A program made the position numbers and the translations under genes. From positions 1 to 45,828 of the forward strand of contig CAIZLB010000025.1 in NCBI GenBank assembly GCA_903933735.1: 45,828 nt of DNA. The letters run 5' to 3'. The stretch's first letter is position 1; every line of letters starts with the position of its first letter. The stretch comes from an uncultured bacterium. Lineage in GTDB: Bacteria; Patescibacteriota; Minisyncoccia; Phycocordibacterales; CAIZLB01. The notes under the pieces were generated by a model, which searched no databases, was not told the origin of the DNA, and saw nothing but the letters and a program-made list of their open reading frames with translations. Of the stretch, positions 26,599-29,294 are shown one piece after another.

Positions 26599-27177
26599 AT
26601 GGAAAATACACCTACACCAAGAACACTAACTGGCGAATATGATGAAAATAGAAATAAAGGTATAGAAGTTGATGAAATACGTCAAATAAAAGAACATGTA
26701 GGAGAAGTCTTTATATCAAAAGAAATAAACGTCCCAGAAGAAAAAATAAGATCATATCTTGATGCTGTTGGAGATATAAATCCAATACATTTTAATCCTG
26801 AACGTATAAATGAATCAATCTTTGCAAGAAGATCAGGTGGCAAGATCATAGTGCCAGGAATGTTTGTTCAATCCCTTTGGTCTCACAGAGATGTAATTTA
26901 TAGTGCGTTAAAGATTAAAGAAGATTATGAGGTTATGCTACCTACAATACTAGGCCCTACAGATTTTAAATTTCCTATTTTTGCAGATTCTAATATTGTT
27001 TTCAGATTAGAACTCGAAAAAGCTGAAGATCAACCTATTCAATCAAGATATGGTGTTAAAACAACTTGGAATATAGTGGCTTATAGTGAAATAGGGTCAA
27101 AGATGCATCAGATAATGACGACGAGAGTGGTGTTGAATTATGTTGCACTGAAATCGAATACAGAGTCACCAGAATAG
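26599..27177 (+). CDS. MaoC-like dehydratase (hot-dog fold)
   Basis: YLDAVGDINPIHFNPE...GKIIVPGMFVQSLW. Confidence 0.75.
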   Translation: MENTPTPRTLTGEYDENRNKGIEVDEIRQIKEHVGEVFISKEINVPEEKIRSYLDAVGDINPIHFNPERINESIFARRSGGKIIVPGMFVQSLWSHRDVIYSALKIKEDYEVMLPTILGPTDFKFPIFADSNIVFRLELEKAEDQPIQSRYGVKTTWNIVAYSEIGSKMHQIMTTRVVLNYVALKSNTESPE

Positions 27178-27230
27178 GTTGGTTAATAAAAATTATTTAA
27201 CAAAATAATTAAAATAATATATAATAACCA

Positions 27231-27287
27231 CGCACCATGTTAAAGACCTTTATGCAGATACGTCTGCATCGAGGGCTTTTTCTTTTA
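27231..27287 (+). ncRNA. Tandem sRNA array, unit 1
   Basis: TTTAAC (27196-27201) and TATAAT (27220-27225) upstream; hairpin ATGCAGA-TACG-TCTGCAT; ends GGGCTTTTTCTTTT. Confidence 0.5.
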
Positions 27288-27338
27288 TAGAGTTGACATA
27301 CATATTGACAACCTAGAATCTTCGAATATAATTACACA

Positions 27339-27392
27339 TATCAATACGAATTAGGATCCAAAAGGTGCAGGTGCCTTAGGAGCCTTTTTCAT
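27339..27392 (+). ncRNA. Tandem sRNA array, unit 2
   Basis: TTGACA (27305-27310), 16-nt spacer, TATAAT (27327-27332); ends AAAAGG...CCTTTTTC. Confidence 0.5.
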
Positions 27393-27430
27393 TTATTTGA
27401 CTCCAAATATGGATTTGATATTATAATACA

Positions 27431-27505
27431 CATAGCAAGTCAGACCCCTGAAGGAGATCTATCAGAACGATAGTTCACACGTTCCTCGGGGGCTTTGCTT
27501 ATTAT
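27431..27505 (+). ncRNA. Tandem sRNA array, unit 3 (same family as unit 5)
   Basis: TTGACT (27397-27402) and TATTAT/TATAAT; AGCAAG...CTTTGCT, ACCCC...GGGGG, CTATC-AGAAC-GATAG stems. Confidence 0.6.
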
Positions 27506-27544
27506 AAAAGTTGACAACATAAGTCAAAGGATTATAATAGTACT

Positions 27545-27611
27545 CAGAGTTAGCAAGCACGCGAAAGCCACGACCTAACCAGAAAAAACGAGACACGTCT
27601 CGTTTTTTCAT
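27545..27611 (+). ncRNA. Tandem sRNA array, unit 4
   Basis: TTGACA (27511-27516), 16-nt spacer, TATAAT (27533-27538); GTTAG...CTAAC stem; terminator AAAAAACGAGA-CACG-TCTCGTTTTTT. Confidence 0.6.
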
Positions 27612-27649
27612 TTATTTGACACGTAACTTGAATTTGGTATCATATACAC

Positions 27650-27735
27650 ATAGCAAGTTAGACCTCCATAAGAGGGGCTGCCGTCGGTGGCCCACGTGTA
27701 TAAATTACACAGATCTTAGGAGGCTTTGCTTTTTA
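27650..27735 (+). ncRNA. Tandem sRNA array, unit 5 (same family as unit 3)
   Basis: TTGACA (27616-27621), 16-nt spacer, TATCAT (27638-27643); AGCAAG...CTTTGCT, CCTCC-A-TAAGA / TCTTA-GGAGG, GTGTA-TAAAT-TACAC. Confidence 0.6.
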
Positions 27736-27857
27736 TGATACTAACGTTTTATTAGTTTTTTACATATCTGGCAAATAGAATCTATTTTTTAGCCTTATAA
27801 ATATAGATTTAGGATCTTATTTGCTTTTACCTTTGCAAATAGAATAACTATAATATT

Positions 27858-29294
27858 TTAAGCCTTAAAATCCTCACCATTTGAAAGCTTATATCTGGTA
27901 TACCTATGGGCCTTACCTTCGGTTTCGATCTTAATAAGCAAGCCTTGACTGACCCATTTTTTAAATAATTTAGACATTTCATATGTCTGTGTCATGTTTG
28001 TTATATCTCTAGCCTCTGCGTTATTAATATATCTATTTTTTATCAAAAATTCTTTTACTTTTTCCCACTCACTTTGTTTCTTTTCATTAAGTAACACAAC
28101 TTTTACAGAATCATCATATACTGGATAAGTTAAATAAATTGGATCATATAAATTTTGAGCGCGCATTTCATTCCTCATAGCCTGAACGCCTTCATTGCGA
28201 TCAAGATTTGGTTGTTCTGGAAATTCTCGTAAGTGTTTTACGATTAAATCATTTCTGTATCCATCCGCACGCACGTACCCAATATTTGATTTAGTTATAT
28301 TGTAAGGAAAAAGTCCTGGATTAAGAATCTCCACCCTATCTTCAAAGATGTTAATCTCAACATCTCGTTTAATATGATAATCTCTGTGGATTATTGCATT
28401 TGTGATAGCTTCTTTAATAGCACGCTCTGGTATCTGATACTTAGTAATAAAGCCTGAATGTATCTCTATCCCATTACGGAGCAATAATAACACATATTCA
28501 TGAGTATCTTTGATTAACTTAATTAGAGGACCGTCAATTGTTTTTGGTGTACCTTTTAAATTTGGAGTTTCTTTAAAAGTTTCTATAGTACCTGAGTATT
28601 GAAATACTCTAACTGCACATTTTGTATCAAGAATATTTGTTGGGTATTTTGCAAACAATAATACGGCAGCTCTTGTGGGTGACAAAATACCTTCATGGTT
28701 TTTTCTGGCTAAACCAACGCTAAACAGTATATCCTGTGTTGTACCTTCATTTATATTTCTTTCTTTTTTCCATAATTCAAAATACTCAGTCTCGAGCAAT
28801 TCAAAATCAACATCAACAAGTTCTTTGTCGGCTTTTTCAAAACCTTTGGCATAACTAAATTTGACTATTTCTTGTGGGGTAAGTTTTTTATTACTTTTAT
28901 TTTGCCTAATATATACATCATTATTTATTGAATGAAACATTCCTTCATTTTTAGGAATAGATATAAATGCAACAGTCTTACCATTTTCAGGAATAATTAT
29001 TTTTTTAGGATTCCAGATTGTACCAATGGGTGGTAAAATCCTTTGTACCTCTTTTCCGATTTCATCAAAAAGTTCAATATTTTCTTCAATACCGAAGACT
29101 CTATCAATCCCTTTGAGTTTAGTTTTTTCAGGATCATCAATACCAAAAAATATAACGCCTCCATCAGTGTTACCCATAGCAACAATTGTTTGCACAATCT
29201 TTGTAACCACTTTATCACCATTCAAACGTTTAAATTCAATCGTTTGGGTTTCTTCAGGTATTTCCAAAATTTGTATAACAAGATCATTATTCAT
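27858..29294 (-). CDS. AlbA_2/Schlafen-domain ATP-binding protein (RecG-like putative regulator)
   Basis: IPEETQTIEFKRLNGD...IVAMGNTDGGVIFFGIDD; AITNAIIHRDYH. Confidence 0.8.
   Translation of the reverse strand: MNNDLVIQILEIPEETQTIEFKRLNGDKVVTKIVQTIVAMGNTDGGVIFFGIDDPEKTKLKGIDRVFGIEENIELFDEIGKEVQRILPPIGTIWNPKKIIIPENGKTVAFISIPKNEGMFHSINNDVYIRQNKSNKKLTPQEIVKFSYAKGFEKADKELVDVDFELLETEYFELWKKERNINEGTTQDILFSVGLARKNHEGILSPTRAAVLLFAKYPTNILDTKCAVRVFQYSGTIETFKETPNLKGTPKTIDGPLIKLIKDTHEYVLLLLRNGIEIHSGFITKYQIPERAIKEAITNAIIHRDYHIKRDVEINIFEDRVEILNPGLFPYNITKSNIGYVRADGYRNDLIVKHLREFPEQPNLDRNEGVQAMRNEMRAQNLYDPIYLTYPVYDDSVKVVLLNEKKQSEWEKVKEFLIKNRYINNAEARDITNMTQTYEMSKLFKKWVSQGLLIKIETEGKAHRYTRYKLSNGEDFKA

Follow-up and report, generated by a model that had tools for sequence, protein, structure and literature searches.

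In the 45,828-nucleotide (nt) contig CAIZLB010000025.1 of an uncultured member of the ultra-small Patescibacteria, here called the window, the gap at 27181-27740 holds five small RNA genes in a row, each with a promoter of its own. From comparison of the sequences with those of relatives, we lean with modest confidence towards reading the units as monocistronic small-RNA (sRNA) genes whose products are antitoxins that bind nucleases, the window holding a solo set of them. In related genomes the same RNA types lie head-on to genes of the NYN and DUF3800 families, the RNA structures covary, and for one nuclease, NYN-A, the pairing of gene and RNA is nearly one to one.

The five units of the array

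The promoter scan bears out a preliminary description of this DNA in which five promoter-RNA-hairpin units were placed on the + strand of the gap. All five promoters are on the + strand and, from unit 1 to unit 5, have 11, 12, 10, 12 and 11 of 12 consensus matches. With starts placed 7 nt past each -10 hexamer we obtain 27232, 27339, 27431, 27545 and 27650, exactly the positions given before. The RNAs were scored with three covariance models, R1 for units 3 and 5, R2 for unit 1 and R3 for unit 2, whose E-values are rough. The units are as follows.

27197..27225, + strand: unit 1 promoter, TTAACA-17-TATAAT or TTTAAC-18-TATAAT (promoter scan)
27231..27290, + strand: unit 1 RNA, a hairpin with a UACG loop, of a type with an NYN-A partner elsewhere (R2 74.7 bits, covariation, fold)
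27305..27332, + strand: unit 2 promoter, TTGACA-16-TATAAT (promoter scan)
27336..27394, + strand: unit 2 RNA, of a type with an NYN-B partner elsewhere (R3 82.4 bits, covariation)
27397..27424, + strand: unit 3 promoter, TTGACT-16-TATTAT with TG ahead of the -10 (promoter scan, shared block)
27426..27503, + strand: unit 3 RNA, start near 27431, of a type with a DUF3800 partner of about 187 amino acids (aa) elsewhere (R1 84.4 bits, covariation)
27511..27538, + strand: unit 4 promoter, TTGACA-16-TATAAT (promoter scan)
27545..27613, + strand: unit 4 RNA, a short 5′ stem with a GAAA loop and a strong terminator at 27582-27609 (fold, homologue)
27616..27643, + strand: unit 5 promoter, TTGACA-16-TATCAT with TG ahead of the -10 (promoter scan, shared block)
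27644..27734, + strand: unit 5 RNA, start near 27650, of the unit 3 type with an extra hairpin (R1 70.3 bits, fold)

Units 3 and 5 have in common a 41-nt promoter block and the first 21 nt of the RNA, and it is within this repeated block that their -35 hexamers directly follow the preceding T-run, as had been noticed earlier. The proposal that every unit ends in a T-run terminator held in part: the intrinsic terminator of unit 4 is strong and units 1 and 2 end as bulged hairpins with T-runs, but the 3′ ends of units 3 and 5 are a closing stem followed by TTTGCTT, and the T-run of unit 3 is weak. The five units also do not form the single small-RNA family first supposed. They fall into four RNA types, with units 3 and 5 as one type, unit 4 separate, and units 1 and 2 sharing a 5′ tail alone (AUCAnUACGAA in homologues). 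Rfam was run on 27170-27860, and no known family matches any of the unit types, so that "uncharacterised" remains apt as to family; as to function it does not, since each type has a nuclease partner elsewhere. A micro-ORF (open reading frame) in unit 1 (MKKTLMQIRLHRGLFLL) was ruled out as a candidate by an in-frame TAG in one homologue (L031) together with compensatory changes in the stem.

Counted loosely, promoter-like sites in this region are not significantly enriched (11 versus 7.1 +/- 3.1 in shuffles), and we therefore take the support for the promoters from homologues. Among unit-1-type homologues, 66% have a promoter with at least 10 of 12 matches versus 4.4% of shuffles, and the -10 ends 6 nt ahead of the RNA in 42 of 77.

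Homologues covary on the RNA strand

When 100 relatives were searched at the DNA level, units 1, 2, 3/5 and 4 each gave matches of their own, at sites apart from one another, in genomes as distant as other members of the order. At E up to 0.01, where the weakest matches are doubtful, R2 matches 72 of the 199 genomes of the order, and at E up to 1e-4 it matches 15 of 294 across the phylum. R3 matches 33 of the 199, while R1 matches in the order-level scan the window's own genome and one more, and also finds RNAs adjoining DUF3800 genes in two genomes outside the genus (G007 and G030). The conservation and covariation in related genomes that had been put forward as a check on the units are thus both present. 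Across 66 distinct R2 sequences 98.6% of cells are paired and 12 of 18 pairs show compensatory change, a level of covariation reached by none of 500 shuffles; in the smaller alignment sets, compensatory change is seen in 11 of 18, 7 of 13 and 11 of 25 pairs. Fitting these alignments to the models works in favour of the structure, but slid controls score far lower. Nested stems, in a pseudoknot-free fold, account for the covariation observed, and the unpaired 5′ tail AUCAnUACGAA is conserved in the unit 1 and unit 2 types. In three RNA sets, G-U pairs outnumber A-C mismatches 72:3, 32:4 and 24:3. Since it is only when read on the RNA strand that these G-U positions can pair, we conclude that this strand, and not the strand of the nuclease messenger RNA (mRNA), is under selection.

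RNAs of the unit 1 and 2 types accompany NYN genes elsewhere

In relatives, RNAs of these two types face small genes with an NYN domain (Pfam) head-on, at or over the 3′ ends of the genes; a few homologous copies have other neighbours (KilA-N, GrpE, MYG1). Starting from the RNAs, we find an NYN gene converging on the RNA end in 28 of 36 unit-1-type loci, 22 of 30 unit-2-type loci and 14 of 18 phylum-level places. The first two counts leave out a false match that looks like a NUDIX protein (L079) and take one pseudogene locus (L017) twice.

For the count from gene to RNA, one genome per species was scanned with an alignment of the NYN-A protein, and 80 loci were kept, with titles that include Nomurabacteria, Zambryskibacteria, Yonathbacteria, Paceibacterota and Uhrbacteria, and in some cases only "bacterium". 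In 76 of these 80 loci, chosen by protein alone, the RNA model places a unit-1-type RNA at the gene end on the other strand, the commonest overlaps with the last bases of the gene being 1, 37 and 52 nt; in the remaining 4 a diverged variant, promoter and hairpin in the same place, is seen by eye. The control, 30 housekeeping NYN genes, gave a weak match at 1 (Fisher p about 4e-21).

The partners of units 1 and 2 score above the cut-off for Pfam NYN, and NYN-A has invariant acidic residues at D10, D84, D109 and D111. The structure model of NYN-A is confident (predicted local distance difference test score 92.8) and has the NYN RNase fold, with VPA0982 (2qip) and the MARF1 NYN domain (5yaa, 6fdl) as the nearest solved folds.

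Five NYN loci on IMG/VR contigs classed as viral (L269-L273) likewise show, at the gene end, a promoter and a hairpin RNA that face the gene, read by eye and in one case picked up by the model as well. Either phages may carry the pair, or these contigs may be misclassified; no NYN-A relatives were found on phage records, and at the four loci read among NYN relatives on plasmids (Sinorhizobium, Bradyrhizobium, Methylocystis, Crinalium) there is no such RNA. At another locus (L030, G028:C3, 2186-3593) a unit-2-type RNA is flanked on both sides by NYN genes.

RNAs of the unit 3/5 and 4 types accompany DUF3800 genes elsewhere

DUF3800 proteins are reported to have an RNase H-like fold, and an association of their genes with non-coding RNAs (ncRNAs) has been described (PMC10910872). 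We find the unit 3/5 type head-on to DUF3800 genes in four genomes (G000, which is the window's own, G002, G007 and G030). Within the window's genome, RNA units, mostly in tandem, run head-on to three of five DUF3800 genes (on contigs C19, C24 and C44) and to one of two NYN genes (C17). About five units, unit 1 and unit 3 types among them, make up the array at the C19 locus, where the nuclease is still present; it is directly comparable with the array in the window. Among the readable DUF3800 genes of relatives, 12 of 18 have a head-on promoter of at least 10 of 12 matches within 300 nt, versus 3 of 27 control genes. No unit 3/5-type DUF3800 partner was found on viral contigs. A copy of unit 4 in G005, 88% identical, lies head-on directly at the end of a DUF3800-scoring gene of 247 aa; beyond G005, unit 4 matches one more genome, by the terminator half alone.

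The same loci hold further RNAs. At about 2420-2560 of the C19 locus (L016) there is an RNA type with a conserved GAGCTGGCGCCCTGTCGCATGGAATA and its own promoter and hairpin, which also occurs downstream of nuclease genes in L042, L046 and L136, with both NYN and DUF3800 neighbours. The C24 locus (L045) has two tandem copies of another RNA (GGCGTCTGGTGCTCCTATTGAGTGTCCTGGGCGCTTTTCG) downstream of, and head-on to, DUF3800. Upstream of the nuclease genes in L016, L042, L044, L045 and L046 stands a shared promoter-like motif, CTTTATGARAACTTTA followed by a GATAGAAT-like -10 and GGGATG, which may regulate the nucleases in common.

RNAs without their nucleases

The window array has neither a nuclease gene nor a remnant of one at its locus and is a solo set, the partner-free case; this presumes that the partners are not in the missing 6% of the genome. 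The genome, which is 93.6% complete, has no close NYN-B, and its best relative of the unit-4-linked DUF3800 stands at 25%. It does have an NYN-A, though a diverged one (31%) whose own RNA has diverged too, and the unit 3/5 kind of DUF3800 on C19. Decay can be read at other loci. In a genome of the same genus (L017, G002), two unit-2-type RNAs, an NYN-B gene interrupted in frame by a TAA and an RNA of the unit 3 type stand in a row; two loci (L061 and L081) keep NYN remnants of 17 and 21 codons adjoining an intact RNA, and a third (L074) has an NYN of 89 aa with an internal deletion. The distribution is therefore asymmetric: NYN-A was not found without the RNA (80 loci, 4 of them by eye), whereas the RNA does occur where the nuclease is missing or has decayed.

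The array itself is flanked by two genes.

26599-27177, + strand: MaoC-like gene, left flank of the array gap
27858-29294, - strand: Schlafen AlbA_2 / HATPase_c_4 gene, right flank, head-on to the array

Because the MaoC-like gene has in the family only a distant copy, its synteny gives no comparison with an empty site. The Schlafen AlbA_2 protein has a PADLOC match to a pAgo model (1.1e-22). The AT-rich stretch 27740-27857 has inverted strings GCAAATA...TTATTTGC and weak sites resembling promoters; it could represent either a sixth unit in decay or the Schlafen gene's terminator.

Discussion

In the mechanism that we propose, the RNA of each unit would be the partner of a specific small nuclease, an NYN enzyme (PIN-like RNase fold) for units 1 and 2 and a DUF3800 enzyme for units 3/5 and 4. 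In intact modules the nuclease and RNA genes converge, and a single hairpin lies at, or is overlapped by, both of their ends; the RNA would be transcribed from its own strong promoter and would bind and block a nuclease that is otherwise toxic, in the manner of type III toxin-antitoxin systems. The array of the window would be what remains after loss of the nucleases, a safeguard retained to act in trans on nuclease modules that arrive from outside, or both. The sequences establish the RNA genes, their structure and strand, the near one-to-one pairing for NYN-A and the solo and decayed forms; transcription, toxicity, inhibition by binding and protection are what we infer. A nuclease not found without its RNA, and an RNA found without its nuclease, are what a toxin and its antitoxin predict, and from this we arrive at the antitoxin reading; the head-on, near one-to-one pairing elsewhere likewise makes it probable that the RNAs are antidotes. 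A cofactor or a cis regulator fits the asymmetry less well.

Several points weigh against the antitoxin reading. The gene-to-RNA test covers NYN-A, 6 of the 18 readable DUF3800 genes have no clear head-on promoter, and the partner of unit 4 is assigned from one relative (G005). Loci with the RNA alone might reflect gaps in assembly or partners whose divergence puts them beyond the reach of the profiles, and tight pairing could equally occur with an effector RNA or a cis regulator.

Most serious among the alternatives, though in our view unlikely, is a defence ribonucleoprotein in which the RNA activates, guides or scaffolds the nuclease, with tandem RNAs to widen its range. The tight NYN-A pairing, the several RNA types within one locus (L016), the conserved unpaired 5′ tail, the LabA-like NYN proteins among PADLOC candidate defence proteins and the five viral contigs would all suit such a particle, but RNAs with intact promoters are retained where the nuclease is gone or broken, and there is no variable guide-like segment, the variable parts being the covarying paired stems. 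Solo RNAs such as those of the window could instead have been recruited as ordinary regulatory sRNAs with mRNA targets, unrelated to nucleases. Five intact units with no partner nearby, in a genome without close partners for units 2 and 4, are in keeping with this; their sequence, structure and promoters, however, remain those of the paired forms, and we regard recruitment as quite unlikely. It is very unlikely that the RNA acts in cis only, as an antisense or bidirectional terminator at the 3′ end of the nuclease mRNA: the convergent layout with its short overlaps, and T-runs on both strands of the hairpins, would be expected of such an element, but the G-U pairs are confined to one strand, the RNAs have their own promoters, and solo copies, the window's included, lie far from any such gene. 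Chance promoter-like and hairpin-like strings in AT-rich intergenic DNA, which the unremarkable loose promoter count might suggest, have a negligible probability and are already refuted by conserved, covarying homologues in dozens of genera.

We put forward only tentatively the wider claim that this is a new kind of RNA-antitoxin system, spread across Patescibacteria, in which genes for nucleases of at least two families converge with hairpin-RNA genes and solo arrays serve as an immunity bank. If it is true, solo arrays of different antitoxin RNAs would guard against several nuclease modules at once. The genomes of Patescibacteria are tiny, and many nonetheless retain these modules. With the pairing, NYN and DUF3800 genes that were anonymous and hairpins that were orphans become pairs open to testing, and the window is a concrete case of partner RNAs retained in a row without nucleases.

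Comparison with known systems

In agreement with the preliminary description, the array is not a CRISPR (clustered regularly interspaced short palindromic repeats) array: identical repeats with unique spacers under one leader are absent, and each unit has its own promoter. The Rfam DUF3800 motifs (e.g., RF02969 DUF3800-I and RF02968 DUF3800-IX), reportedly first described by Weinberg et al. in 2017, are likewise structured ncRNAs near DUF3800 genes, a nearness that the unit 3/5 and 4 types have in relatives and not in the window. None of these families matches in 27170-27860 at E up to 10, or at the gathering threshold in 20 homologous loci. LabA-like and MARF1 NYN RNases share the fold of the unit 1/2 partner, and in the literature searched, with partial coverage, we found neither a report of an RNA partner for them nor one of an NYN-sRNA pair. 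In AbiF/RCd22 (PMC12373285) an ncRNA that works both in cis and in trans neutralises a toxic protein of another fold, which is alike in kind; the protein there belongs to the Abi_2 family and is preceded by its RNA, and the RNA motif and the layout are different.

Type III toxin-antitoxin systems (ToxIN, CptIN, TenpIN; PMC5086642) also join a small endoribonuclease to a small structured RNA partner, although inhibition by binding is in our case something that we infer. They are bicistronic operons with one promoter and a terminator between RNA and toxin (PMC5086642), whereas here the genes are convergent and the RNA has its own promoter. Instead of a tandem-repeat antitoxin transcript there is one hairpin per unit, with tandem copies under promoters of their own, and instead of the ToxN fold the partners are NYN for units 1/2 and DUF3800 for units 3/5 and 4. 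Because the operon, the repeats and the fold all differ, we do not file the units as type III members; as antitoxin RNAs, they would extend the range of RNA-controlled toxins to PIN-like and RNase H-like enzymes.
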